Source of the DNA: Acidimicrobiia bacterium
Lineage (GTDB): Bacteria; Actinomycetota; Acidimicrobiia; Acidimicrobiales; CATQHL01
Direction of reading: 5' to 3'
Length of the DNA stretch: 64,000 nt
Assembly: GCA_009840735.1 (NCBI GenBank)
Contig: VXNF01000058.1
Span: 82,531-146,530, forward strand
Shown here: one piece after another, positions 29,279 through 46,724 of the stretch
How the letters are laid out: every line of letters starts with the position of its first letter
Numbering within the stretch: the first letter of the stretch is position 1
Made by a program: the position numbers and the translations under genes
Notes under the pieces: model-generated
Told to the model about the DNA's origin: nothing
Database searches by the model: none
Seen by the model: the letters and a program-made list of their open reading frames with translations, nothing else

Positions 29279-31810
29279 ATGAACGACGCAATCAGCGTCT
29301 CGGGACCCATCGGCGGCGCCGACGACAAAGAGATGACCCTGGAGACCGGCCAACTGGCCCCGCTGGCGGGAGGCGCCGTGCTGGGGCGGCTCGGGCGGAC
29401 CGAGGTTCTCGTCACGGCGACGGCCTCCGAGCACCCGCGCGAAAGCGCCAACTTCTTCCCGCTCACCGTCGACATCGAGGAGCGCATGTTCTCCGCCGGC
29501 AAGATCCCGGGGTCGTTCTTCCGCCGCGAGGGCCGGGCCAGCGAGCAGGCCACCCTGGCGTGCCGCCTCATCGACCGCCCCCTGCGTCCCGCCTTCCCCG
29601 ACGGTTTCCGCAACGACGTGCATGTCGTCGGCATCGTGCTGGGTGCCGACCAGCAGAACCCCTACGACGTGCTGGCTCTGAACGCGGCGTCGGCCGCGTT
29701 GGGGATGTCGGGCATCCCCTTCGGCGGTCCCGTCGGCGCGGTGCGCGTCGGCTACAGCACCGACGGCCAATGGATCCCCCACCCCACCTATCCCGAGGCC
29801 GATAACTGCACCTTCGAGATGGTCGTCGCCGGGCGGGTGCTGGCCGACGGCGACGTGGCGGTGATGATGGTCGAGGCCGCCGGCACGCCGGGCTCGGTTG
29901 GCCACTACGAGGCCGGCGCCCCCAAGGTGGACGAGGCGGTTCTCGCGGAGGGGCTCGAGGCCTCCAAACGCTGGGTGTCCGAGGCGGTGGCCCTGCAGCG
30001 CCGTCTCATCGCCATGGCGGGTGTAAAGCCCACCATGGGCCACGAACTCATGGTCGACTACAGCCCCGAGGTCGCCGAGGCGGTCGCGGAAGTGGGCCGT
30101 TCCCAGCTCGTTGAGGCGTTGCAGGTGGCCGACAAGGCGGCGCGCCTCGCCGCCGAGCGCAGCGCAGCCGAGTCGATCGTCGCGGCGACAGCCGAACGCT
30201 TCGAGGATGCCGACGGCATCGAGCAGCAGGCCAAGTCGGCGGTCCGGGCGCTCTCCAAGAGCATCGTCCGAGAGCGGATCCTAGATGAGGGTCGGCGCAT
30301 CGACGGCCGGGGCGCCCGCGACCTGCGGCCGCTGTCGGCCGAGGTGGGCGTCATCGCCATGACCCACGGCTCGGGGCTGTTCCAGCGCGGCGAGACGCAA
30401 GTCCTGAACGTCACCACGCTGGGCACGCAGCGCATGGATCAGATCGTGGACGGCATCGACCCCACCGAACGCAAGCGCTACCTGCACCACTACAACTTCC
30501 CGCCCTTCAGCACCGGCGAGGCCGGTTTCATGCGCGGGCCGCGTCGGCGGGAGATCGGCCACGGAGCGCTCGCCGAGCGGGCGTTGCTACCGGTCATACC
30601 GAGCATCGACGAGTTCCCCTACACCATCCGGCTGGTCTCTGAAGTGCTGTCCTCCAACGGCTCGAGCTCCATGGCCTCGGTGTGCGGCTCGAGCCTGTCG
30701 CTCATGGACGCCGGCGTGCCCATCAAGGCGCCGGTCGCCGGAATCGCCATGGGCTTAGTCAACGAGGGTGAGCGCTTCGTGGCCCTTACGGACATCCTCG
30801 GCGCCGAGGACGCTTTCGGCGACATGGACTTCAAGGTGGCGGGCACCGAGGATTACGTCACGGCGCTGCAGCTCGACACCAAGATCGACGGGATCCCCGC
30901 TTCGGTGCTGGCCGCCGCCCTGGAGCAGGCCCGCGAGGCGCGGCTGCAGGTGTTGGAGGTGATGCGCGGCGCCATCGACGGCCCGCGCCCCGATGTCGGT
31001 GAGACGGCCCCCAAGATCCTGTCCTTCGAGATTCCCACCGACAAGATCGGCGAGGTCATCGGCCCCAAGGGCAAGGTCATCAACGCTCTGCAGGACGAGA
31101 CCGGCGCTGAGATCATGGTCGACGAGGACGAGACCGGCGCTCGGGTCGCCATCGCCGCCGCCGACCGCGCCGCGGTGGCCGACGCCGAGGAGCGCATCCG
31201 CGCCATCGTGTTCCCGCCTGAGGTCGAGATCGGCGCGGTCTACACCGGCAGGGTCGTCAACATCACCGGCTTCGGTGCCTTCGTGAACATCCTGCCGGGG
31301 CGCGACGGGCTGGTACACATCTCCAAGCTGGGCGGCGGGCGCCGCTTGGACCGCGTCGAGGAGGTGCTGTCGCTGGACGACGAGATGACCGTGCGGGTCG
31401 ACTCGGTGGACGGCAACAACCGCATCAGCCTGATCCCCGTGGGCGGCGACGATGAGGGTGACGACGGGGGCGGCGGGCGCCCCACGCGCGACTCCGCTGA
31501 GGGCCGCCCCACCGAACGCCGCGACGGAGGTCGCGACGGCGGCCGCGACGGCGGCCGCGGAGGTCGCGACGCTGGCCGTGACCGTGGTCGGGACGGTGGC
31601 CGTGACCGTGGCCGCGACGGCGGTCGTGACGGTGGCCGCGGCGGCGGGCGGGACCGTCAAGGACCGCGGTCGGACCGCTCGGCGCCCGAGCCGCCCAGCG
31701 GCCTCGAGGAGGTCTCCTTCGCAGAGGAGTTCGACCGGATGGTCGCCGCCGACTTCGGCGACCTCGGCCCCCCGGACGCCCCCAGGGGCCCGCGCCGCCG
31801 CCGGAACTGA
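29279..31810 (+). CDS. pnp: polyribonucleotide nucleotidyltransferase with Gly-Arg-Asp repeat tail
   Basis: RNase PH repeats, KH (IGEVIGPKGKVINALQ), S1 (YTGRVVNITGFGAFV); AAAGGA RBS. Confidence 0.97.
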   Translation: MNDAISVSGPIGGADDKEMTLETGQLAPLAGGAVLGRLGRTEVLVTATASEHPRESANFFPLTVDIEERMFSAGKIPGSFFRREGRASEQATLACRLIDRPLRPAFPDGFRNDVHVVGIVLGADQQNPYDVLALNAASAALGMSGIPFGGPVGAVRVGYSTDGQWIPHPTYPEADNCTFEMVVAGRVLADGDVAVMMVEAAGTPGSVGHYEAGAPKVDEAVLAEGLEASKRWVSEAVALQRRLIAMAGVKPTMGHELMVDYSPEVAEAVAEVGRSQLVEALQVADKAARLAAERSAAESIVAATAERFEDADGIEQQAKSAVRALSKSIVRERILDEGRRIDGRGARDLRPLSAEVGVIAMTHGSGLFQRGETQVLNVTTLGTQRMDQIVDGIDPTERKRYLHHYNFPPFSTGEAGFMRGPRRREIGHGALAERALLPVIPSIDEFPYTIRLVSEVLSSNGSSSMASVCGSSLSLMDAGVPIKAPVAGIAMGLVNEGERFVALTDILGAEDAFGDMDFKVAGTEDYVTALQLDTKIDGIPASVLAAALEQAREARLQVLEVMRGAIDGPRPDVGETAPKILSFEIPTDKIGEVIGPKGKVINALQDETGAEIMVDEDETGARVAIAAADRAAVADAEERIRAIVFPPEVEIGAVYTGRVVNITGFGAFVNILPGRDGLVHISKLGGGRRLDRVEEVLSLDDEMTVRVDSVDGNNRISLIPVGGDDEGDDGGGGRPTRDSAEGRPTERRDGGRDGGRDGGRGGRDAGRDRGRDGGRDRGRDGGRDGGRGGGRDRQGPRSDRSAPEPPSGLEEVSFAEEFDRMVAADFGDLGPPDAPRGPRRRRN
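31525..31655 (+). repeat. degenerate GGR/GRD-encoding tandem repeat at pnp 3' end
   Basis: Encodes DGGRDGGRDGGRGGRDAGRDRGRDGGRDRGRDGGRDGGRGGGRDR. Confidence 0.8.
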
Positions 31811-31917
31811 CTCAGCGGGACCACGATTGATCACCGCCGGGCCGCGTTCGGGCAACGTGAGGCCAGCGCCCGGTGGTGCGGGCATCCGGCCCAGCGCGGC
31901 CGGACGACGGTGAATTC

Positions 31918-32718
31918 ATGATCCGGGTCGGCGTACTCGGCGCCGCCGGGCGCATGGGGCGCACCGTGTGCTCGGCCGTGGCGGTGGCGGGGGACATGCA
32001 ACTCGTCGCGGCGGCAGACCCCGCCGCGGCCGGCGCGACCGTCGCTGAACTGATCGGCGAGAAGACCGCCGGCAATTCCGCCTCGGTGACTGTGGCCGCC
32101 TCGCCGGACGACTTCGTCGAGGCGGGCGTGGAGGTTGCCGTGGACTTCACGGTGCTGGCGTCGGCCCGCCAGAACCTGCCTCGCCTCGCGGCGGCCGGCA
32201 TCCACGCCGTGGTCGGCACGAGCGGATTCACCGAGGATGACCTGGCGCGCCTCGCGGGACTCTTTGATCGCAGCAACTGCATCATCGCCCCCAACTTCGC
32301 CATCTCCGCGGTGCTGATGATGCGCTTCGCCGAGTTGGCGGCGCCGCTGTTTGACAGCGCCGAGGTGATCGAGTTGCACCACGACGCCAAGCTGGACGCC
32401 CCCTCGGCCACCGCCATGACGACGGCGGACCGCATGGCTGCCGCCTCAGGGGAATGGAACCCCGACCCGACCCGGACCGAGGTGCTGGCCGGTGCCCGTG
32501 GCGGGCTCGGCCCAGCCGGGATCAGGGTCCACTCGATTCGCCTGGCCGGTCTGGTCGCCCACCAGGAGGTCATCCTGGGCGCTCAGGGCCAGACCCTCAC
32601 GCTCCGCGCCGACTCCTACGACCGCTCCTCGTTCATGCCAGGAACCCTCCTGGCGATCCGAGCAGTCGCCAACCGCCCCGGCCTAACCACCGGCCTCGAA
32701 CTCCTCCTCGGCCTGTAA
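31918..32718 (+). CDS. dapB: 4-hydroxy-tetrahydrodipicolinate reductase
   Basis: MIRVGVLGAAGRMGRTV, VVGTSGFTEDDL, APNFAISAVLMMRF, ELHHDAKLDAPSATA. Confidence 0.95.
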   Translation: MIRVGVLGAAGRMGRTVCSAVAVAGDMQLVAAADPAAAGATVAELIGEKTAGNSASVTVAASPDDFVEAGVEVAVDFTVLASARQNLPRLAAAGIHAVVGTSGFTEDDLARLAGLFDRSNCIIAPNFAISAVLMMRFAELAAPLFDSAEVIELHHDAKLDAPSATAMTTADRMAAASGEWNPDPTRTEVLAGARGGLGPAGIRVHSIRLAGLVAHQEVILGAQGQTLTLRADSYDRSSFMPGTLLAIRAVANRPGLTTGLELLLGL

Positions 32719-34225: not shown

Positions 34226-34660
34226 TGAGTATCCCCCCGTTTCTTGGAGGCATCGTCTAAGAGGGGATGCCATGTCCGAGACACGAAGACAGTACGACCC
34301 GGAGTTCCGCGCCGGTGCTGTGCGGATCGTTTCTGAGACTCGCAGGCCGGTCGCTGAGGTGGCCCGCGAGCTGGGGATCTGCTAGGGCACTTTGGGCAAC
34401 TGGGTCCGCAAGGACCGCGCCCGGGCCTCCGGCGCGGCGCTCGACGGCGACGAGCGCGCCGAGCTGGCGCGGCTGCGCAAGCGCTGCGCCGAGCTGGAGA
34501 TGGAGCGTGATGTCCTCAAACGATCGGTGGTCCTTCAGGTCGAGGAGGCGACGCGCTGAGCCTCACGGAGCACATCGCGGCCCAAAGGACCGATCACGGT
34601 GTGCCTCACGCGGTGGCCTGCCGGGCCCTGGGGGTGGCCCCCTCGACGTTCTATGGGCGC
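34226..34660 (+). mobile_element. decayed IS3-family element A (left end, orfA with in-frame TAG, 5' part of orfB)
   Basis: Left end [77 protein letters not shown]; orfB start [33 protein letters not shown] then lost. Confidence 0.8.
34272..34559 (+). pseudogene. IS3 OrfA transposase, nonsense codon at 34383-34385
   Basis: Single continuous frame 34272-34559 apart from TAG at codon 38. Confidence 0.8.
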
Positions 34661-34922
34661 CGCGGCGCCCTCGTCGATGTCGGCCTGCGCGACCCACTTG
34701 CGCACCGACTCGACGCCGAAGCCCAACTGGTCCGCCACCCGCCGCACCGTCCCGCGGCTCGTGCCCAACTCGGCGCGCAACGCCCGCACCAACCGCACCG
34801 CCTGGGCCTTCTCCACCTCCGAATACCGGCGCGAAGACCCCCTGCCTGCTGAATGTCCAGATGCCATGACTCCATTCTCGCTTCCAAGCTCAGGAGCCTC
34901 CAAAAAAACCCAGGGCGATTCA
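34660..34922 (-). mobile_element. decayed IS3-family element B (left end plus orfA N-terminus)
   Basis: Left end TGAATCGCCCTGGGTTTTTTTGGAGGC (minus strand from 34922); [67 protein letters not shown]. Confidence 0.75.
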
Positions 34923-36561
34923 GCGCTGTGAGAAGTGCTTGACGATGTCGGCAGCGACCTGTTGGATCCGTTGTTCGGTTCCGACAATCGCTTCGAGTTG
35001 GGCCCAGCGGGTCTTGAGACGCTCCTTGCGCTCAACCTCCTCGCCTTCGGTGGCATCCTCGAACTGATCGTCGAGATAGGGCTGCGAGCTCTCGTCGAGT
35101 GAGAGCTGCGCCAGCCTGCTCTCGTAGTAGATCGGAACGGTGGCGCCGTCCTCCACGGACCGCTGGATGTCGTAGATGCTGATGTAGTCGCCGAAGACGG
35201 CGCGGGTGTTGGCATCCCGCAACTCGATGGGGGTGCCGGTGAATCCCACGAAGCTGGCGTTCGGCAGCGCATCACGCATGTGCCGGGCAAAGCCATCGAT
35301 GAAGTCGTACTGGCTGCGGTGCGCCTCATCCGCGATGACGACGATGTTGCGGCGATCCGACAGCGCCCGGTGCGTGTCGCCGCGCTCGGTGGGGAAGAAC
35401 TTCTGGATCGTCGTGAACACCACGCCGCCCGACGCGACCGAGAGCTTCCGTCGCAGGTCGGCTCGGCTCTCTGCCTGCACCGCGTCTGGCGCAGTAGGTC
35501 ACCGCAGCGCGAAAAGGTGCCGAAGAGTTGGTCGTCGAGGTCGTTACGGTCGGTCAGCACCACGATCGTCGGGTTGTCCATTGCCCGCTCACGGATGATC
35601 GCCCCGGCGTAGAACGCCATGGTGAGGCTCTTGCCAGCCCCCTGCGTGTGCCAGACGACGCCGATCCGGCGATCGCCGGGCTGCCCGCCGGCCCGCAGGG
35701 TCTCGGCGAGCGCGGTCCGCACGGCACCGAACTGGTGGTACCCGGCCATCTTCTTGACCAGCACGCCGCTCCCGTCGTCGTCGAAGACGATGAAGTCACG
35801 AATCAGGGGAAGCAGCCGCTCGGGAGCGCAGACGCCCTCCAGCAGCACCTGCAAGCCCGTGAGGCTCGGGTCGGCCAACTCCTCGCCGGAGATCGTGCGC
35901 CACGGTTTGAACCACTCCCGGCCCGCTGTGAGCGTCCCGAGGCGCGCGTTGAGCCCATCGGAGACGATGAGCAGCTCGTTCATCCCGAACAGCGTCGGCA
36001 GCTCCGCCTTGTAGGTCTGGAGTTGCCGCCACGCGGCCCAGATGTCGGCGTCGGTGTCGGCGGGGTTCTTCAGTTCGAGGACACCAAGCGGCAGTCCGTT
36101 CACGAACAGCACGACGTCGGGTCGCCGCGTCCGCTTGTGCTCGCGGACGGTGAACTGGTTGACCGCCAGCAAGTCGTTGGCGCCCGGGTCCTCGAAGTCG
36201 ATGGCGGTCGCCTGCGCGCCACGGGTCGCGCCGCCCGCAGTGCGGTGTTCGACGGTGACCCCCTCGGTCAACATTCGATGGAACGCCCGGTTGCGAGCCT
36301 CGAGGGTCGAGCCCTCCGGCCGGGTCAACCTGCGGAGAGCATTCTCCAGCGCCTCATCGGGGAGCGAAGGGTTGAGCCGCGCCAGAGCGTCACGCAGCCG
36401 CCCCTCCAGCACAACGGTCCCGTAGTCCGCACGCTCCGGTTGCACACCGTCGGGTCCGATTTCCGGTCCGTGCGCGACTGCCCAGCCGAGACCCACCAGC
36501 CAGTCCAGCGCCACCCGCTCAACATCGGCCTCCGTCAGGGTGCCCGAGCCGGTTCTCAGGG
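34920..36561 (-). pseudogene. hsdR: type I restriction endonuclease subunit HsdR, frameshifted and 3'-truncated
   Basis: GVLELKN nuclease motif, [12 protein letters not shown] Walker A, then frame switch near 35483 to frame with [13 protein letters not shown]; ends in IS3 end. Start uncertain. Confidence 0.9.
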
Positions 36562-36978
36562 GGCCGTCTCCCACGGATTGACGACCCCGATACCCAATCC
36601 TTCGAAGTCGCGCACGTTGCGTGTGACCACGGCAAGGTTGCGGACGGCAGCCGTCCCGGCAATGAGCATGTCCGCGAGGCCCGGCGTTCGTCCCGAGCGA
36701 ATCAGGTCGGCCCGGATGTTGGCTGCCCACTCAGCGGCGGTGCGATCCACCGGCAGGATACGGTCGCCGAAGGCGTTGAGCAGGCTCGCGACGGCGGCTT
36801 GCAGCCGATCCTTGCGCCGACCAGCGGGCAAAATCTGAACCCCGACTTGGAGTTCATGAACCACGATTGCCGAGAGCCTGGGCCGGGGTGCTCGATCCAA
36901 GAACGCGAGGACCTTCGGCTCGGGGGTGTCCCTGGTCAGCTCCGAGACGACGTTCGTGTCGAGGAGGAACCTGCTCAT
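36556..36978 (-). CDS. PIN-domain VapC-type toxin
   Basis: [46 protein letters not shown]. Confidence 0.92.
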
Positions 36979-37286
36979 TCGTCCTCCACGCCCCAGTCCT
37001 CGTCGGTCCAGTCGCGCCAGAACGGTGGGCGAGGCTTGTCGAGGCTGCGATCTGGGATCTCCAGGTTCGTGCCGCGAGGAATGTTGTCGACCAGCCACCG
37101 GCCAAAGTGCAGACTTGCTCCGTCCTCGTCCTCATGCAGTAGCCGCTCCGGTAGAACCACGAACGTCTGCCGCCGTCCGATGCGCTGCGGCCCCTCTTCC
37201 TCAGCCAGACGCAGGATCTCCGACAGCCGTGCCTTCGCCTCGGCCACGGTCCAAGCAGGGCGGGGTGCGGGATGCTCTATTGCCAT
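36975..37286 (-). CDS. Phd/YefM-like antitoxin partner of the VapC
   Basis: WTVAEAKARLSEILRLAEEEGPQRIGRRQTFVVLP; ATGA overlap with VapC start. Confidence 0.85.
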   Translation of the reverse strand: MAIEHPAPRPAWTVAEAKARLSEILRLAEEEGPQRIGRRQTFVVLPERLLHEDEDGASLHFGRWLVDNIPRGTNLEIPDRSLDKPRPPFWRDWTDEDWGVEDE

Positions 37287-37505: not shown

Positions 37506-37853
37506 TCACGGCCAGTGGACCCCGGGGTAGGGGACCGGGTTGTCGACCGCCCAGGTGTGCAGTTGCCGCGCTAGTGCGGGTCCGAGCGCCGAGCCTCGGG
37601 GATGGCATTGTTTGCGTACGAAGACGATCGTCGCGGGCTGTTCGTCAGCGGCCTGCGAGTGCGCTGCAAGCGCTGCGTAGTCCGCGAAGTCCTCGGTCAC
37701 GATGACGCGTCCGTGCTCTCGTGCGGCTTCGTAGACCGCGGCGTCGTCGCTGCCTCCGAGTCCCGTTTCCACGACAGTGGTGGCATCGTGACCGAGGTTT
37801 CGCAACTCGGCCGCGGTTGCCGGCGGCAGCATCTCGTCGAGCAACCACCTCAC
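37506..37853 (-). CDS. DUF5615-type PIN-like toxin
   Basis: RWLLDEMLPPATAAELRNLGHDATTV..GRVIVTEDFADYAALA. Confidence 0.82.
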   Translation of the reverse strand: MRWLLDEMLPPATAAELRNLGHDATTVVETGLGGSDDAAVYEAAREHGRVIVTEDFADYAALAAHSQAADEQPATIVFVRKQCHPRGSALGPALARQLHTWAVDNPVPYPGVHWP

Positions 37854-38293
37854 TGGGACAGGAGGCGTTCGCGGCGGTCCAGCTGGGCTCGGATCTCTTC
37901 GGCGGCGCGCTCGTTCACCTCGATGAGGCGGTCGATATCTTCGGGGTGCTCCGTGTAATAGTCCGCTGCCAGCAGCACCGAATCCACCGGGAGTCCGGCT
38001 TCGTCGGCGAGGAACTGCGCCCGCTCCATCCCTTCGCAGGGCGCGCTGCGGAGGTCTCGGATGACCTCCCAGACATCGGGGCCGCTGACCAGACCCGCAC
38101 GTCGCCCGGCAGGACCGCTCCGATAGGCGACTCCAGGGAACCGACGCAGCTTCAGCCCCTCGTCCAGTAGTTCCGTAACCAGGCGTGTCATCGAAACGTC
38201 CGCAGCGCGGCTCTCGGCATCGAGGCGTGTCAGCAACTCCTCCGAGAGGCGAAACGACGTCGGCCGGCGCGGGTGAGTGTCCTGTAGTGCCAT
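37850..38293 (-). CDS. RHH/DUF433-like antitoxin partner
   Basis: N-terminal TSFRLSEELLTRLDAESRAADVSMTRLVTELLDEGL; 4-bp overlap with DUF5615 gene. Confidence 0.75.
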   Translation of the reverse strand: MALQDTHPRRPTSFRLSEELLTRLDAESRAADVSMTRLVTELLDEGLKLRRFPGVAYRSGPAGRRAGLVSGPDVWEVIRDLRSAPCEGMERAQFLADEAGLPVDSVLLAADYYTEHPEDIDRLIEVNERAAEEIRAQLDRRERLLSQ

Positions 38294-38553: not shown

Positions 38554-40101
38554 CTATTGGCTGGCTTTCCGCCGGAGCCATTCGGAGGCGTCGAAACCCG
38601 GGCGGGCCGCCGCTGAGGTCAGCGCTTGGACAGCCTGCGCTGCCAGCTCGGGCCGAAGTCGGGTGATGGCTCGGTACTCGATGCCGCCGACGTCGGTGAA
38701 GCGCCAGTCCGGCGGCTGGCCGTCGGCGACCACTGCGCCGGCGCTCCCCGGCTCGAACCTCGGCATGACGAGCTTGTACGGGGCCGTGTCGAACCGGACG
38801 CCGACGAGCTTGTCTTCCGGGGACCGAATCATGGCCACTGGGCGTCGATTGTCGGGGAGGAGGCCCAGCATCGGGAAGGCGCGGCGGCCCTTGAGCCGAA
38901 CGCTGTCGCACAGTGGTTGGATGCACAGCCAGTAGTCGCCAGAGTCGTCGCGAAGGACGATGCCAAGTTCGAGCCGTGGTGGTATCTGGCCGCAGTCGCT
39001 GCTGCTCAGCATGACGGCGAGCGCCATGCTCGAGGCACCGTCGTCACCGAACGCGGCTGTCAGATCATCGACCGCCCTGGTTGTCGCCGAGTCACCCAAG
39101 CCGATGCCGCTCAGGCCACAGGCGATTGCCTCGTGTGCCAATGACTCGTCAGGAAGATCCTTCACCTGCTGCGGGACTCTATTGTCGGGATTCCTCAACC
39201 TCTCGACTAGCGCGCTCGGATTCCCGCCGCTCGTTGCTCGCGCTAGCGGCTCGGCGACAGAGTCGATGTCCCAGACGACGCTGACCCCTGCGTCGTGGAG
39301 TGCCTGTTCGAGGTCGCTGGCGAGCAGGCGGGTGAACTGGGGACCCGCGTCGTCGGCTTGGGGCAGCAGTGCTCGGTGTACGAGGGCTCCGGCGTCCAGA
39401 CTGGAGCTGAAGCTCGCCAGAATCCTCGGCGTGGAGTCGCGCACCGTGTTGACGCCGCGGAACACGAACTGAGGCATGAGTCCCGCGAAGATCGTTTCAA
39501 GGTCGTTTCGGATCCGCTTCGGAAGATCGCGATACGGCGCAGTCCTGCGATCCTCCCCGCCGACCAACGGGATTCCTGGCTTCCCGAAGACGAGCACGAC
39601 CGTGTGCTCGTATTGCAACACGAAATCCTGAGTCTCCTCAAAGTTCGTTGCTTCTGTGAGTCGTTCGACGACGCGGCGCAGGTTGTGCGTCCCGGTGAAG
39701 ATGACGACGACCGTCAGACGACCCTTGTTCGCTTCGGTGACCGCCGAGATCATCTCGATAGTCCTGGTGTCGTCTCCGAACAGCAGCCAGTCGAGTATCA
39801 GCAGGTCAGAAACTTGAGATCCCCGGCGGGCCAGAGCCACGAGATCGGAATCTTGCTCGTCCGGCTGGAGCACGCCGCACACGATCCCTTCGTCGATGAA
39901 CGCGCTGACGAGCTCTGACGGGTGGACCGGTGTCGCGTCGTCGTTCCGCGGGGGATCGAGACCGGGCTGCGGCTCGCCGTCGGGATCAAACGGCTCGTCG
40001 GTGCTGAGCTCCTCCAGCGGGCCGTAGTCGCCCTGAACCCGGTCGTCTATGACCAGCGCTGTGCGGAAGTAGTCGCTGACTGCGGTCATCGGTGCCCTCA
40101 C
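38554..40101 (-). CDS. receiver-domain (REC-like) protein with large uncharacterised C-terminal region
   Basis: ALVIDD, LLILDWLLFGDD, VVIFTG, LVFGKPG = receiver DD/D/T/K residues; GTGA overlap with upstream gene. Confidence 0.75.
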   Translation of the reverse strand: MRAPMTAVSDYFRTALVIDDRVQGDYGPLEELSTDEPFDPDGEPQPGLDPPRNDDATPVHPSELVSAFIDEGIVCGVLQPDEQDSDLVALARRGSQVSDLLILDWLLFGDDTRTIEMISAVTEANKGRLTVVVIFTGTHNLRRVVERLTEATNFEETQDFVLQYEHTVVLVFGKPGIPLVGGEDRRTAPYRDLPKRIRNDLETIFAGLMPQFVFRGVNTVRDSTPRILASFSSSLDAGALVHRALLPQADDAGPQFTRLLASDLEQALHDAGVSVVWDIDSVAEPLARATSGGNPSALVERLRNPDNRVPQQVKDLPDESLAHEAIACGLSGIGLGDSATTRAVDDLTAAFGDDGASSMALAVMLSSSDCGQIPPRLELGIVLRDDSGDYWLCIQPLCDSVRLKGRRAFPMLGLLPDNRRPVAMIRSPEDKLVGVRFDTAPYKLVMPRFEPGSAGAVVADGQPPDWRFTDVGGIEYRAITRLRPELAAQAVQALTSAAARPGFDASEWLRRKASQ

Positions 40102-42986
40102 GCCTCCTTTGTCGTCGGGCGGATCAAGAACTCGGTGCCGTCATTGGCGTCGCCTAGGTGGATCGACCACCCGGCCCGTTCCAGTACCTGGCTTGCAATC
40201 GCTAGCCCGAGGCCGCTGCCACCGGGCTTGGTGGTGAAGCCGAAGTCGAACACCCGGTCGGCTACGTCCGCCGCGATCCCGGGACCGCTGTCACGGTAGA
40301 CGAGCGTGTCGCCGCGCTTGTCGAGTTCGATGACCTGAGCCCGTCCGGGCGAGTCGCGCCGAATCCAGTACAGGCTGTTGTCGACCAAGTTGATGAACAC
40401 CGGATAGAACGTGGATGTGTAGCCTTCGAGCCTGGCGGCCTGAAACTCCCGCCTCGGACGGATCTCAACATCCAGGTCTGCAAGGCGTTCCCGGAACAGC
40501 TCGTCGAGGTAGCGCGAGATGTCGCTTCCCTTGATGGTCGTCGGGGTGCGCCGCAGCCGGCGCTGCATAGGGGTGAGCAGCGTGAGGTAGCTCTCGAGAT
40601 GGTCGATGTCTCGCCGCAGGTCTTCGTAAAGCCTGACGAGTTGTGGATTCTTCTTCGCCCATGCCCCGACTCTGCGCACGTCGCTGCGGATGCTCGAGAC
40701 GGTGGCGTGGAACTCGTGGTCGACGACTGCCAGAGCCATGCCGAGTTGCACGAGTTCCAGCTGCGCGTCTGCTTGGGCGCGCAGTTCGACGATCTCGGCA
40801 TCGGCGGCGGCGGCGAAATCGGTGGGATCGGGGGCGCCGCTGCTGAAGACGAGTTGGCTTGAGTGGACGAGGTTGACGACTCGCTTGAGTGCTCTCCGCG
40901 AGTCGGTTGCCAGATCGTCCACTGCCTGCTCGAACTGGGCCTGATCCTGGATCCATCCGCTGCTGGCCGAGGCGGTCGGCACGGTTATCGTGCTGAGTCG
41001 CGTGTCGAAGTCGTCGCGGAGTCCCGCCAGAGTGGCGCGCACTGCGCTGGTCAGCCCCGCCAACGCGCTGTCGGCCTCTTGTTGAGCTTCGCCCACCGCG
41101 CTCCTCGCCTGCGCGACGCGGCCCTCGACGAACTCGCGCCGCTCCCTCTCGTCGGCTGCTTTCGCGGCCAGCCGACTCTCGGCGGCCGCGACCAACTCGT
41201 CGACGGCCTCCAGGGCCGGGCCGACGTACGATCTCTCGATCTCCTCAAGGCCGCGTTCGAGGGTCAGCATGTCCCGGCGCATCGGCTCGGTCGGAGCGAA
41301 GCCCGTCGGCTCGTCGAACTCCAGCGATGTCGCGAGCTGGCGCAGTTCTCGCCTCGCCGCGGCGACACGCTGAGAGGCGGGCTGGAGCCGATCACATGTG
41401 TCGAGTTCCGTCGCTAGGGCTTGCACGATTTCTGACGCCTGATGCTGGAAGTCCGTCTCGTTGAGGTGCTGGATCGCGCTGGCGAGCTGGGGGCGCAATG
41501 TTCGCCGCCCTTCCCTGGCTCTCTTGTCTCGTTCCTTGCGTAGTGCATCCTCCCTCGCGAGCCGCTGCCGGCCTTTCTCATAGGCATCGGCCCGGGGGCT
41601 CTTGGCTCGGAAGAATGTCGCCGCGAGTTCCACGAAGAGGTTGATGAGCAGATCCCTGAAGGCCGAATATGCCCGGCCCTGCGTGAACCCCTCCCTGCCC
41701 GCCTTCTCCTGCAGCGTGGCGTTGTGCTTGCTCGACAGGCTGACGGCACCGAACATACGTCTGTAGGAGAAGTAGTAGTAACTCGCGCCCAGCGTTCGCC
41801 GTTCTTCGATCTCCAGATAGTCCACGTCGGGACGGCCGTACGGCTGCACGCGGATGCCATCCATATAGACGTAGAGGCCACCAAGCTGCCGAAGCCGGGT
41901 CGTCATGGTCGCGAAGGCTTCTGGATCGAGTCGCGAATCGGGTCGTTCGCCTTGCACCACTCCGAGTTCGAACGCGAAGGGCCCGCATCGTGGCTGTAGC
42001 CGTTCTGGACATGGGATGTTGACGTCGGTTGGCTCTTCGTCGAAGATTCGGATCGTTCCCAGGAAGTTACCGTTCTCGTCAAACTCGCCGAGGACGTGGT
42101 GATCGGCTTCTTCAAAGTCGGACATATTGAAGAAGTCGTTGGGCGGCAGGAGGCTCTCGTCGTCACCGCCGCCGCGGCGATCGACGAAGTCGACCGAGAA
42201 CTCGGGCGTGGTCGGGCTCCCGAGCCACACGTCGGTGAAGCCGTGCAACGTCCTGCCCAGTAAGGAGGCGTCCGTCGGTCGTTGGCTCTGGAGGTCGGGG
42301 GGCAGGTCCTCGGATACCGGGGAGATGAAGAACACCGTGCCGCTATCCTGGATCGGTTCCAGGTCGGGCAGCGACCGGTAGGGATCGTCCGGCATGGAGT
42401 CGAGAGTCCTCAGGATCTCATCCACTCGCTGTGACCAGGATGCCGAGCTGTCCAGCGCACGGAAGTCCGCCACGGCCTCAGCTATCGGTGCCTTCAGTTG
42501 TGCCACGTTGTCCGCGGTGAGGCCGCCGGAGTCCAACTCGACGAGTCCCACGGGCACCTCGTCTAAGTCGACGCGCGGCAGTTCGAACATCTTCCAGCTG
42601 ACGAGCGCGGCGACCGCGGGATGCCCGATCCGCTTGGACACGACGAGCACCTGGCTGCCGAGAGCGCCTATGGCGAGACGCCCGATGCCCTTCTCGCCGA
42701 GTTGCACCCTCGGCCGCATTCCCGGCGGCGGCGGCGTCGAGCCGCGCTCCAGCTTCGACTCGGTGGCGATGGTGAGCCACTGCTTCTCGAAGGTCGCCCG
42801 GTCCATGCCGAGGCCGTCGTCGCTCACCACGAGCACGTTGCGAGTTCGGAAGAAGTCCGCGATCGCGACGGTGGCGTACGCGTCGTAGGAGTTCTTGAAC
42901 AGCTCGCTTAGCGCTGTCGGCAGGCTGGCGATCTGCTGCCGCCCGAGCATGTCGACCGCCCGCGCGCGGGCGCGGAAACGAGTCAT
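40098..42986 (-). CDS. ATPase with N-terminal HSP90/MutL/MORC-like GHKL domain and C-terminal histidine-kinase-type GHKL domain
   Basis: N-term LSELFKNSYDAYA, DDGLGM, GEKGIGRLA; C-term DHEFHATVSSIRSDVRR, NLVDNSLYW, DSGPGIA, GGSGLGLAIAS. Confidence 0.88.
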   Translation of the reverse strand: MTRFRARARAVDMLGRQQIASLPTALSELFKNSYDAYATVAIADFFRTRNVLVVSDDGLGMDRATFEKQWLTIATESKLERGSTPPPPGMRPRVQLGEKGIGRLAIGALGSQVLVVSKRIGHPAVAALVSWKMFELPRVDLDEVPVGLVELDSGGLTADNVAQLKAPIAEAVADFRALDSSASWSQRVDEILRTLDSMPDDPYRSLPDLEPIQDSGTVFFISPVSEDLPPDLQSQRPTDASLLGRTLHGFTDVWLGSPTTPEFSVDFVDRRGGGDDESLLPPNDFFNMSDFEEADHHVLGEFDENGNFLGTIRIFDEEPTDVNIPCPERLQPRCGPFAFELGVVQGERPDSRLDPEAFATMTTRLRQLGGLYVYMDGIRVQPYGRPDVDYLEIEERRTLGASYYYFSYRRMFGAVSLSSKHNATLQEKAGREGFTQGRAYSAFRDLLINLFVELAATFFRAKSPRADAYEKGRQRLAREDALRKERDKRAREGRRTLRPQLASAIQHLNETDFQHQASEIVQALATELDTCDRLQPASQRVAAARRELRQLATSLEFDEPTGFAPTEPMRRDMLTLERGLEEIERSYVGPALEAVDELVAAAESRLAAKAADERERREFVEGRVAQARSAVGEAQQEADSALAGLTSAVRATLAGLRDDFDTRLSTITVPTASASSGWIQDQAQFEQAVDDLATDSRRALKRVVNLVHSSQLVFSSGAPDPTDFAAAADAEIVELRAQADAQLELVQLGMALAVVDHEFHATVSSIRSDVRRVGAWAKKNPQLVRLYEDLRRDIDHLESYLTLLTPMQRRLRRTPTTIKGSDISRYLDELFRERLADLDVEIRPRREFQAARLEGYTSTFYPVFINLVDNSLYWIRRDSPGRAQVIELDKRGDTLVYRDSGPGIAADVADRVFDFGFTTKPGGSGLGLAIASQVLERAGWSIHLGDANDGTEFLIRPTTKEA

Positions 42987-44098
42987 GCCGAGGCGTGCAT
43001 CAGCGGCCCCGGGACGGCAGCGTCGGGAGAGCCCCGGTCACTAGCCGCACGGCGGGCCTGGTTGACGTGCTCCACTAGGTGCCGCCCGAAGTGGCGCGCG
43101 AGAACGACCGGCACGGCGTTGCCGATCTGCCTGGCCTGAGAGGTGAGGCTGCCGGTGAACTCGAATGAGACAGGGAAGGTCTGCAACCGTGCCGCCTCGC
43201 GTGCGCTGAGCGCCCGGTCTTGGGTCGGATGGCCGAAGCGCCCGTTGCTGTAGCTGATGCACCTCGTGGTCAGCGCGGGCGCTGGCCTGTCCCAACTCAG
43301 CCGGCCGTAGACGTCGGTGTGCCCCGCGAAACCGTCGCGATGGCAGTCGGGCCAGAGCCGGTCCGGCCAGTCCCGGCGGTCGCCGCCCTCCGGCGTGGCC
43401 CGGATCCGCTCGAGGTTCAGCTTCGAGAGCCTCATGGACCGGTGGCTGCTGATGCCGGACTGTCTCTGCCCGGCCTTGATCGGAGGGAGCGAGCCGATCC
43501 ATTCTCTCACTGTCGAGCGCGGGCACCCGGCCGCCGGGCCGTGGGTGGGGTCCGGGAGGCTGATCGGTCCGAGGCGGCTCGCGACGAGGACGAGCCTGCG
43601 CCTCGTCTGAGGCACGCCGTAGTCGGCGCTGCACACTGTGCCGTAGCTGACGTGGTGTGTCCTGCCCAGCTCCTGCACGAATTCGGCGAAGGGACCCTCC
43701 GAAGCCGAGACCCGCTGCATTCCCGGCACGTTCTCCACGAAGACCAGCTCCGGGTTGAGTGCCGTCACGAACCGGAGGAACTCCACCAGCAAGAACGATC
43801 GGCGGTCCCGGGCGGGCGGCTGCTGCCGATGGCCGGCGAACGGCTGGCAGGGAGCGCAACCCGCGAAGAGCATCACCGACTCTGACGCTGGGCGCAGTAG
43901 CCCGGTCACCTCCTCGGCGCTCACCTCGCGGATGTCTCGCTCGATGACAGGAGTGCCCGAGAAGTTCAGCTGGAAGGTAGCGACCGCGTCAGGGTCCCAG
44001 TCGACGGCCAGCAACGGCGAGATGCCCGCGTCGGCGAACCCCCGCGTTGTGCCTCCACAGCCCGAGAAAAAGTCTGCCAGGGCGATGTCAACGCTCAT
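42983..44098 (-). CDS. C5-cytosine-specific DNA methyltransferase
   Basis: FSGCGGTTRGF, PCQPFAGH, FVENVPG, YGVPQTRRRLVLV, REAARLQTFP, RQIGNAVP. Confidence 0.96.
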   Translation of the reverse strand: MSVDIALADFFSGCGGTTRGFADAGISPLLAVDWDPDAVATFQLNFSGTPVIERDIREVSAEEVTGLLRPASESVMLFAGCAPCQPFAGHRQQPPARDRRSFLLVEFLRFVTALNPELVFVENVPGMQRVSASEGPFAEFVQELGRTHHVSYGTVCSADYGVPQTRRRLVLVASRLGPISLPDPTHGPAAGCPRSTVREWIGSLPPIKAGQRQSGISSHRSMRLSKLNLERIRATPEGGDRRDWPDRLWPDCHRDGFAGHTDVYGRLSWDRPAPALTTRCISYSNGRFGHPTQDRALSAREAARLQTFPVSFEFTGSLTSQARQIGNAVPVVLARHFGRHLVEHVNQARRAASDRGSPDAAVPGPLMHASA

Positions 44099-44162
44099 CT
44101 TGGTCCCTCAGTGCTGCTCAGCACGCCAACTCGCCTTATTGTCGTCACTGCCTGTCAAGCTA

Positions 44163-44242
44163 CTTCACCACAGGGGTGAGACAGTACGTGCGGCATGCAC
44201 CTGAGCGGCTGCTGGGCTCGGCCCGGGGTCCACCGCGGTGGG
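44163..44242. repeat. dispersed ~80-bp repeat copy B
   Basis: See copy A at 37419-37498. Confidence 0.85.
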
Positions 44243-44263: not shown

Positions 44264-45802
44264 TCACGCTACCCCGGCGGTCGGCACCCGCAGTTCACCG
44301 GATAGCAACTTCGGCAGCAGCGTGTCCCGCAGGGCAGCGAGCGTGCGGGACACGGTGGCGCTGCCTACCTGGCGTTCAATAAGACTCGAGAACAGGAGGT
44401 CGGGCGACTCTAGGAGTTTGGCCGGGGGCACGATAACCATCGCCTCGTCCAGATGGTGGCGCTGAATGTGTCCCATGGTTGTTGCCTTGTCCGACGCGAT
44501 AGCTCGAAACTCTGGAAGATGTTCGCGAATCCAATTCCAATAGAACCATCTAGGGACTCGACTCGAAGTGACCTTAAACAGATGTTGATTAAGCGCACCA
44601 CGCCCATGCCCCCATAGCACCGTATCCAGACTGCCGAACCAGGAAAACACAACGTCGCCGTCCTCGACAATGAAGTCTTCTCCAATGTCGGCAGACGCCT
44701 TAAAAGACCGTCCGGTGAAGCCGCGCCGCATCTCGGCGATCTTGATGACTGGTAGCCAAGAGTCTTCCGCCGGTGGAAATCGTTTAAGTGCCAGCCCGTT
44801 CGTAAACTTCGCGATTCCGCTCAGGCTGTCAATCTGCCAGCCAGCTGGGATGGAGCCGAGTTCGGAGGGTTCGAAGGCGTCGGGGAACAGGGCGTCAAGG
44901 TCGGGAGGGAGGCCGGAGGGTCGGCCCTCGGCCTTGGCGCGGACCGGATCGAAGTCCACAAACCACGACCGGAACAGCGCCCGCGCCGTCTCATCAAGCG
45001 TCTCGCTCATCCGCCGGTTGAGTTCGATCTTGTCATCCAACGCCCCTAGCACGAGTGCGATTTCGCGCTGCTCTCCAACAGGAGGTATCAGAACGGATTG
45101 AGCGTGCGCTTGGCTGCGATTGAGCCCCGGTACAGCGCTGTCGGAGTTCATATCGGAAAGATTGCTGGAGCGCAGTGCATAGTAGATGTACCGCTGAAGG
45201 GTGAGATCTTCACCCTCGACATAAAATGTCGTATCTATAGGCCAACAGGGCTGGGGGGAGTAATGTACAGCTCCTGCCGTCCCTTTTCGTCCAACGATTA
45301 CGGTCGGGCCTCGCGTAAGGGGTTCGTCATGGAAGCCGACGACCCCGTTGGAGCCGTAAACTCGGAATTCGCCATTGAGTGATCGCTGAGCCTTTGGAAG
45401 TCCGCGGCCATAACTGAACGGGGCAAATTCTCCAAGCTCTTGCTGATGCCAACCGGTCGGGACATGTCCAGACATCAATTTGCCAGCCGCGACCGTCGAC
45501 GGCTGAATGACAACAGAGTCCGGCTTGATCCTGGCGCGGAATGCTTCGTCTATTGTGTGCCAGTCGACAACTTCGACGCGTATCGGCAGATCGGATTCCT
45601 CGAAGGCCTCTCGCAGGTCTCCCAGGATCCCACGGTCGGTCGGACCATCCCCTGCGACAGCCAAGTCCAAGTCGGAATAGTCCTTGGCCTCCCATCTAGC
45701 CCGCGAGCCATAGGCCCGCACCTCGCACTCCGGTACGTGATCTGCGAGAATTCGTTGTACCGTCCGCAGGCTTCGAGGGTTCAAGTCGATAAGGTCAGTC
45801 AT
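44264..45802 (-). CDS. hsdS: fusion: MNT-type nucleotidyltransferase (N-term ~105 aa) + type I restriction specificity subunit HsdS
   Basis: GSRARWEAKDYSDLDL (GSx10DxD) then LMSGHVPTGWHQQELGEF..ALDDKIELNRRMSETLDETARALFRSWFVDFDPVRAKAEG..LIERQVGS HsdS; one uninterrupted frame. Confidence 0.88.
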   Translation of the reverse strand: MTDLIDLNPRSLRTVQRILADHVPECEVRAYGSRARWEAKDYSDLDLAVAGDGPTDRGILGDLREAFEESDLPIRVEVVDWHTIDEAFRARIKPDSVVIQPSTVAAGKLMSGHVPTGWHQQELGEFAPFSYGRGLPKAQRSLNGEFRVYGSNGVVGFHDEPLTRGPTVIVGRKGTAGAVHYSPQPCWPIDTTFYVEGEDLTLQRYIYYALRSSNLSDMNSDSAVPGLNRSQAHAQSVLIPPVGEQREIALVLGALDDKIELNRRMSETLDETARALFRSWFVDFDPVRAKAEGRPSGLPPDLDALFPDAFEPSELGSIPAGWQIDSLSGIAKFTNGLALKRFPPAEDSWLPVIKIAEMRRGFTGRSFKASADIGEDFIVEDGDVVFSWFGSLDTVLWGHGRGALNQHLFKVTSSRVPRWFYWNWIREHLPEFRAIASDKATTMGHIQRHHLDEAMVIVPPAKLLESPDLLFSSLIERQVGSATVSRTLAALRDTLLPKLLSGELRVPTAGVA

Positions 45803-46223
45803 CCTGAGTGCTCGGCTCCATACGCTTAATGAGATCAGCGGTATCGCGAATGAATGTCGGCATGAGTGCCATCGCCGAGTCCACGATGTCCTGACTGTAC
45901 ATATGCGTTGTCTGGATGAGCGTACTCGAATAGTCCTGCCAGCGTTGACCTCCGTCGCCGAGTAAGTGGTTCTCGGCTGCGAGGCGGAGGACGGGTCTAG
46001 GACTGTTGGGAATATCGGGGAGCCGCAATTCGACGTGCAAGTAGCGGCGAACCACCTTCCAAGCCATGTCGTAGCAGATCTCGAATCGCTGGATCACAGA
46101 TTCCATTATCCCCTCGCGATCCAAGCGGGGAACATCCGGTTGCTGCTGGAGCAGGTTATCGTGCTGTTCCTCAAGGTTTTGCAGCACCGTTCGGAGGGTC
46201 GTTAGGTCGACTGACATTTCCAA
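45795..46223 (-). CDS. HEPN-like nucleotidyltransferase substrate-binding protein (HI0074 family), degenerate catalytic motif
   Basis: VIQRFEICYDMAWKVVRRYL, TLIQTTHMYSQD; overlaps MNT::hsdS start by 8 bp. Confidence 0.8.
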   Translation of the reverse strand: MEMSVDLTTLRTVLQNLEEQHDNLLQQQPDVPRLDREGIMESVIQRFEICYDMAWKVVRRYLHVELRLPDIPNSPRPVLRLAAENHLLGDGGQRWQDYSSTLIQTTHMYSQDIVDSAMALMPTFIRDTADLIKRMEPSTQDD

Positions 46224-46301: not shown

Positions 46302-46724
46302 TCAATCATTCCGAGCCTCCAACTCGTCCAGCAGGCTGCGGGCGTCGTGCACGAATTCCCTGGCCGCACGGTAGACCGACGCGGCAATGTCGCTGTCGTA
46401 CATGTGGACCGTCTTGTTGCGCGCCTCGTGATGCGACATCCAGACGTCAACATCGGCGATCAGTCGGTTCTCTGTGGCGAGGCGGAAGAGTTGGCGCATC
46501 GTGACGCCGTCTGCGATGCCCGGCGTGACGTTTGTGTTCAGCCAGCGCTTCATCAGCTTCCAAGACAACTCGTACGTAATCTCAAATTGTTTGATCGCCC
46601 CGGCTTGCATCCCCTCCTGCAGGACAGCGTCGTAGTGCGCCATTCGCTCCTCGTCCGCAGTGACGGCAAGCGTTGCCGAGAGCGCGGTGAGCGAGTTCCG
46701 CAGGGTGGTCAACTCCAGCGGCAT
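46302..46724 (-). CDS. HEPN-like nucleotidyltransferase substrate-binding protein (HI0074 family) with intact RX4HXY
   Basis: AIKQFEITYELSWKLMKRWL, RNKTVHMYDSDIA. Confidence 0.85.
   Translation of the reverse strand: MPLELTTLRNSLTALSATLAVTADEERMAHYDAVLQEGMQAGAIKQFEITYELSWKLMKRWLNTNVTPGIADGVTMRQLFRLATENRLIADVDVWMSHHEARNKTVHMYDSDIAASVYRAAREFVHDARSLLDELEARND

Follow-up and report, generated by a model that had tools for sequence, protein, structure and literature searches.

A recurrent, mobile operon of a cytosine methyltransferase, a MORC-like ATPase/histidine kinase and a receiver protein: a candidate defence system with no recognizable nuclease

A locus of an Acidimicrobiia bacterium raises the question of what could hold together three proteins with no recognizable nuclease among them: a DNA methyltransferase, a histidine kinase fused to a MORC-like ATPase, and a receiver protein. 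The stretch of DNA that was analysed (64,000 nucleotides of contig VXNF01000058.1, hereafter the window) carries on its minus strand three intact open reading frames (ORFs), 44098-42983, 42986-40098 and 40101-38554, which encode, in the order of transcription, a C5 cytosine methyltransferase (methylase), the MORC-like ATPase/histidine kinase (the GHKL protein) and the receiver protein. An earlier note had placed three intact genes here, and both the ORFs and their Pfam domains agree with it. It had also described both joints as 4-bp overlaps: the ATGA overlap of the methylase and GHKL genes stands, whereas the GTGA overlap of the GHKL and receiver genes exists only if the latter starts at the GTG at 40101; since the receiver start in the closest homologue corresponds to the ATG at 40089, which follows an AAGGAGG, a gap of 8 bp is more likely at this joint. 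The stretch just upstream of the operon (44099..44211, minus strand), conserved along with the triad in a genome of the same genus, is presumed to be the promoter region; a promoter scan upstream of the triad gave no sigma-70 consensus, and a terminator scan at the triad found nothing.

The suggestion that this set was undescribed has to be given up, since the triad and both of its signalling Pfam domains were published in 2021, by computation on sequences and with no experiment (PMC8011034). In that work, Bellieny-Rabelo, Pretorius and Moleleki defined HEF_HK (PF19191) and Response_reg_2 (PF19192), reported their linkage as 91.6% in 644 regions, usually with a methylase upstream and often with an adjacent Vsr gene, and found restriction-modification (R-M) genes, tested against simulated genomes, to be enriched around the receiver gene. 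Their proposal was a two-component-like system of the cytoplasm that arose from paraMORCs and is tied to R-M, with no output domain (PMC8011034). The features of that family, namely a Response_reg_2 protein, an adjacent three-domain HEF_HK protein and an upstream C5 methylase, are all found in the window. In the open literature (subscription papers and bioRxiv being mostly beyond reach) no experimental test of the triad was found, and a full-text search for later papers naming HEF_HK or Response_reg_2 returned one, on biosynthetic clusters only; what looked like later citations of the 2021 work turned out to refer to a different paper that shares one author with it. HATPase and REC abbreviations appear among the predicted systems of DefensePredictor (Fig. 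6F; PMC13092281).

The methylase (371 residues; 42983..44098, minus strand; PF00145 DNA_methylase, 1.8e-48) contains the catalytic PCQ motif (residues 83-85) and the ENV, QTRRR and RQIGNAV motifs. Its match to the PADLOC model DruM2 (292 bits) is equal to that of the generic MTase_II models, and among the ORFs listed for 30-52 kb of the window there is no very large helicase ORF of the Druantia DruE type.

The GHKL protein (962 residues; 40098..42986, minus strand) contains three domains, all of which exceed the Pfam cut-offs: HATPase_c_3 (residues 22-125; 42612..42923; 5e-13) with the N-box residues E28, N32 and D35, the HEF_HK phosphoacceptor helix domain (residues 747-813; 40548..40748; PF19191, 2.8e-23) with H757 and E758, and a C-terminal HATPase_c kinase domain (residues 860-957; 40116..40409; PF02518, 3e-14) with N866, D869 and N870, each of these residues being invariant across 61 GHKL homologues. 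An AlphaFold2 model based on the 61-sequence alignment (mean pLDDT 76, pTM 0.57) was matched by Foldseek to SMCHD1, MORC2, MORC3 and Hsp90 modules over about 500 columns, and to ZraS and HK853 over about 220, with E values of 1e-10 to 1e-8. The matches were allotted to the N- and C-terminal halves through the Pfam positions and PDB sequence matches, and between the halves lie long coiled coils of low model confidence. According to the models, this protein would combine a MORC/SMCHD1/Hsp90-like ATPase with a kinase of the ZraS/HK853 type, and the MORC/paraMORC relation put forward in the earlier note holds.

The receiver protein (38554..40101, minus strand) counts 515 residues from the GTG at 40101 or 511 from the better supported ATG at 40089. 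In its Response_reg_2 domain (residues 11-166; 39604..40071; PF19192, 3.2e-21, 76.7 bits against a cut-off of 27), D19 and D104 are invariant in 83 receiver homologues, and D20, T136 and K174 nearly so; C75, in the same domain, is invariant in 83 of 83 sequences of the main branch and is Leu or Ile in the E. coli/Rhizobium/Pantoea branch. Since the phosphorelay residues are present and invariant, His-Asp phosphotransfer is predicted. With the methylase motifs in place and the ATPase, kinase and receiver residues conserved, the catalytic motifs are indeed intact in each gene, as had been claimed.

The roughly 350 residues beyond Response_reg_2 are claimed by no Pfam or PADLOC family; no model in the copy of PADLOC that was searched covers the receiver protein, and the 83 receivers gave zero matches there. 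A confident AlphaFold2 model (83 sequences; pLDDT 91, pTM 0.85) divides them into an all-helical linker region (residues ~185-366; 39004..39549, minus strand), recognized by its modelled secondary structure, and a C-terminal output domain, consisting of a beta-barrel and a helix (residues ~375-498; 38608..38979, minus strand), which is delimited by the model, by Foldseek and by invariance. Within the latter, a CxxxxCD motif (C393-x4-C398-D399; 38905-38925, minus strand) and G380 are invariant in 83 of 83 receivers, and six more homologues keep the same four residues, among them the divergent ones of E. coli, Rhizobium, Pantoea and Lunatibacter. Profiles of the output domain and of the full receiver found no credible match among PDB sequences. 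In 20 carrier genomes the domain is confined to the triad receiver protein, and it is absent from 296 other genomes of the phylum that were sampled; it is system-specific and unreported in the 2021 paper (PMC8011034). The C-terminal region had been taken for the effector: it does contain a distinct predicted folded domain with an invariant motif, whereas the effector role itself is only a reasonable assignment.

In order to follow the system in other organisms, a species-genome collection was scanned with an alignment of four GHKL proteins, which gave 237 relatives, the best 80 of which were kept; a genome scan with the receiver protein alone as the query found nothing, and the receiver protein had no match on plasmids. 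The best 80 of the 237 relatives come from Acidimicrobiia, other Actinomycetota, Chloroflexi, Proteobacteria, Bacteroidetes, Acidobacteria, Desulfobacterales and others, and include archaeal ones from Methanosarcina and Methanoperedens. The order methylase-GHKL-receiver, in one direction and with median gaps of -4 bp at both joints, is found in 74 of the 79 loci scored from these 80, and the methylase lies directly downstream in the remaining five; as the sample was picked by GHKL similarity, these counts say little about divergent branches. That the three genes would be found together elsewhere, as expected of a system, is thus confirmed, and their recurrence in 79 loci, along with dN/dS values of 0.14 for the methylase, 0.19 for the GHKL protein and 0.31 for the receiver (0.23 for its output domain) between the window and the same-genus copy, puts the three-gene observation well beyond chance. 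All three genes are under purifying selection.

A divergent branch with the same three genes, which PGAP names ‘DNA cytosine methyltransferase’, ‘ATP-binding protein’ and ‘response regulator receiver domain’, is found on Pantoea and Rhizobium plasmids and on E. coli chromosomes. By short DNA match, a related GHKL gene is present in 212 of 5,426 complete E. coli genomes (~4%), and the triad was there in three of the three E. coli loci opened. The distribution is patchy, carriers making up 4 of 99 relatives and 3 of 397 genomes of the phylum (own genome included), and five predicted viral contigs carry GHKL relatives. At one locus (L034) there was room for a C5 methylase and none was detected. 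Individual loci also show local peculiarities. Lunatibacter carries the system twice, the second copy (L146, 6106-13545, minus strand) being divergent, with methylase, GHKL kinase, receiver and an adjoining AAA_15/AAA_21 ATPase; such an ATPase also lies 3′ of the receiver gene at several other loci of Bacteroidetes. In E. coli SF-166 (L149, 7681-14873, plus strand) an HNH_2 gene, whose annotation reads ‘phosphorothioated DNA-binding restriction endonuclease’, comes next after the triad, and ArdC and a MobH relaxase are encoded close by. In a genome of the same family (G008; L007, 2182-2184, plus strand) an in-frame stop precedes the receiver output domain in a frame that is otherwise open, reflecting either a recent inactivation or a sequencing error.

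The same-genus genome (G007, L008) gives the clearest view of how the operon travels. Similarity in blastn covers 38564-44211 of the window at 84% identity, beginning where the receiver gene ends and stopping 113 bp upstream of the methylase start, and no flanking similarity was found in the 19 kb compared; being confined to the triad, with unrelated flanks, it indicates that the block moved as a unit. The G007 copy adjoins other R-M-like genes, as read from their translations, and the window copy adjoins a type I R-M remnant and putative toxin-antitoxin (TA) pairs; the description of its setting as a defence/TA island holds. Of the type I genes, hsdR has its N-terminal and SWI2/SNF2 parts in different frames (34535-36730 and 34920-35480, minus strand) and runs at its 3′ end into an IS3-like transposase fragment; being apparently broken, it probably leaves the neighbouring type I system unable to restrict. 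On the other side, a single ORF (44264-45802, minus strand) combines an HsdS-like specificity protein with an N-terminal nucleotidyltransferase domain of the MNT type, and just upstream of it are two NTase_sub_bind genes (45795-46223 and 46302-46724). One of the putative TA pairs (36556-37286, minus strand) is formed by a PIN toxin and a small gene upstream of it, the other (37506-38293, minus strand) by a DUF5615 PIN-like gene and its upstream partner. Housekeeping genes, pnp (polynucleotide phosphorylase) and a dapB-like gene by their translations, occupy 29279-32718 (plus strand), and their end near 32.7 kb marks one edge of the island. The Pantoea copy lies among transport genes, not in a defence island.

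On balance, we lean towards the triad being a restriction-like defence unit that is complete in itself, spreads horizontally and works through an internal His-Asp relay. This reading draws on the order and tight spacing kept in 74 of the 79 loci, with a methylase in the other five; on a block that moves alone between unrelated flanks under purifying selection; on the invariant phosphorelay and ATPase residues and the MORC/SMCHD1/Hsp90 and HK853/ZraS folds; on a patchy distribution that extends to plasmids, the E. coli element with the MobH relaxase and predicted viral contigs; and on the R-M enrichment around the receiver gene (PMC8011034), with the window copy itself in an R-M/TA island. Vsr-like ORFs are present in 39 of the 79 loci, about half, as expected beside an active m5C methylase. 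Since Vsr repairs T:G mismatches arising from m5C deamination, this frequency suggests that the triad methylase is active in its hosts; it also agrees with the proposal of the earlier note that the methylase would mark self DNA. Counted against a defence unit are the setting of the Pantoea copy and the behaviour of the methylase, whose distances correlate with those of the kinase at a Mantel r of only 0.54 (kinase against receiver, 0.87) and which, in a few pairs of loci, is very different beside a similar kinase; the moderate correlation and the swapped methylases make a strict, type II-like matching of specificities doubtful.

Starting from the observed anatomy, conservation and linkage, we infer the following course of events. 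The methylase would label host DNA, and the fusion protein would dimerize on ATP via its MORC-like half and probe DNA; unmarked incoming DNA, or another phage cue, would then turn on the kinase half, His757 would be phosphorylated and hand the phosphate to Asp104 of the receiver, and this would free or activate the C-terminal CxxxxCD beta-barrel, so that the invader is blocked or the cell halted. Vsr, the HNH_2 endonuclease and the AAA_15/AAA_21 ATPase would be optional add-ons in other lineages. The triad is probably a defence system without a nuclease of its own, and its mode is most likely methylation-coupled restriction or abortive defence. More tentative, and rather doubtful as it stands, is the idea of a nuclease-free restriction in which MORC-type clamping would read the mark of the system's own methylase and the His-Asp relay would commit a receiver whose CxxxxCD barrel is an effector of a new class.

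Other explanations fare less well. An unlikely one, in line with what the 2021 authors suggested, is a regulatory two-component system, with kinase and receiver controlling the methylase or neighbouring restriction genes. The classic histidine kinase and receiver residues and the linkage to R-M genes (PMC8011034) are what it would predict, but no DNA-binding output family is present in any of the 83 receivers, Foldseek gave no helix-turn-helix output, a MORC-type ATPase would be an unusual sensor for gene regulation and, as homology to the same-genus genome stops at the triad, there is no constant neighbour to regulate.

It is distinctly unlikely that the triad is an ATP-dependent restriction endonuclease, with an unrecognized nuclease within the GHKL protein or one supplied by a neighbour such as HNH_2 or Vsr. 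The N-terminal 120 residues of the GHKL protein do match the restriction enzyme family NF050001 (BbrUII/HgiDII; 4e-14, residues 10-129, 52 bits against a cut-off of 550) and, weakly, the PADLOC model REase_II (8.5e-8), beyond which neither the GHKL nor the receiver protein had any PADLOC match in a check of Detocs membership; however, the match stops at the ATPase domain, and the remainder is coiled coil and histidine kinase. A full-length enzyme of the BbrUII/HgiDII kind was rejected as an identity for the protein. Searches of the three triad proteins against Pfam, PADLOC and NF050001 matched no nuclease family. As to a borrowed nuclease, an HNH_2 gene does lie 3′ of the receiver gene in E. 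coli (the E. coli locus type of NZ_CP119000.1 has no adjoining nuclease), but among 99 flanking genes scanned HNH_2 accounts for only three (Vsr, the commonest, for 16, AAA_21 for six and AAA_15 for five), and none is beside the window triad. Vsr, HNH_2 and AAA_15 were each considered as the missing effector and set aside, none being constant among loci, and a type II R-M system was likewise discarded: the methylase is there, but neither the triad nor any constant neighbour supplies a nuclease family. The absence of a separate nuclease, pointed out in the earlier note, holds; with no flanking gene constant, the triad itself most likely contains the effector.

Quite improbable, too, is abortive infection in which the phosphorylated receiver releases an RNase domain with a PemK/MazF-like toxin fold that cuts RNA. 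The top Foldseek matches of the receiver model were PorX (E 3.5e-3), likewise a receiver-containing protein, and S. aureus PemK chains (E 0.02-0.06, probability 0.97-0.99), among them 7EWJ (PMC7618322). The PemK matches, the best for the C-terminal barrel, would fall there to judge from size and topology, but no Foldseek match reached E 0.001, hhalign of the output domain against 16 PemK proteins with column-shuffled controls gave no match, and the position of the PemK catalytic Arg, aligned by eye, varies among receivers, C393, C398 and D399 being invariant instead. With PF02452 matched in none of the 83 receivers and no hhalign match, membership of the output domain in the PemK sequence family was rejected; the fold hint is weak. 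Finally, a selfish, addiction-like element without phage defence, whose methylase protects from the rest and whose loss kills the cell, would also be mobile, patchy and always accompanied by a methylase, but these traits are compatible with defence; it is held to be highly improbable.

The window copy is, in summary, an ordinary member of the family published in 2021, and a real, conserved and mobile three-gene system. What makes it interesting is not that it founds a new family but that it lacks a nuclease, fuses a MORC-like ATPase to a kinase and carries an output motif first noted here. New here are the gene order kept in archaea and in many phyla, the precise limits of the mobile block, the fold models, the CxxxxCD output domain and the lack of a constant nuclease. 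MORC/SMCHD1-type ATPases silence foreign or repeated DNA in eukaryotes and, if the triad is defensive, it would unite self-marking DNA methylation, ATPases of this type and a bacterial phosphorelay in one system. The invariant CxxxxCD domain offers a clear set of residues for mutation, and the E. coli relatives make the function of the triad testable now.

Compared with the system of PMC8011034, the window triad has the same three genes, the same domain architecture (their group 1) and the Vsr accessory, to which the present analysis adds members in archaea, the precise extent of the mobile block, the CxxxxCD barrel and the evidence for the MORC/SMCHD1 fold. The paraMORC/MORC GHKL ATPases of R-M neighbourhoods (Iyer, Abhiman and Aravind 2008, as cited in PMC8011034) resemble it, as far as they are represented there, in an N-terminal MORC-type ATPase with transducer beside a DNA methylase; unlike them, the triad protein has a histidine kinase in place of a nuclease as its C-terminal half, and a receiver protein as its dedicated partner. 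VcSduA, a Shedu protein with a GHKL N-terminus that has itself been tested against phage, shares a GHKL ATPase thought to gate an effector, but is a single protein with a fused DUF4263 nuclease and without methylase, kinase or receiver (PMC12137116); Pfam found no DUF4263 domain in the triad. BbrUII/HgiDII share the related N-terminal ATPase domain and a cognate methylase, whereas the triad protein is without their nuclease half. Detocs, reportedly described by Rousset et al. in 2023, is said to differ in its buffering second receiver, its lack of a methylase and a sensor that is not MORC-like, but its His-Asp phosphorelay reportedly ends, as proposed for the triad, in a receiver-effector protein.
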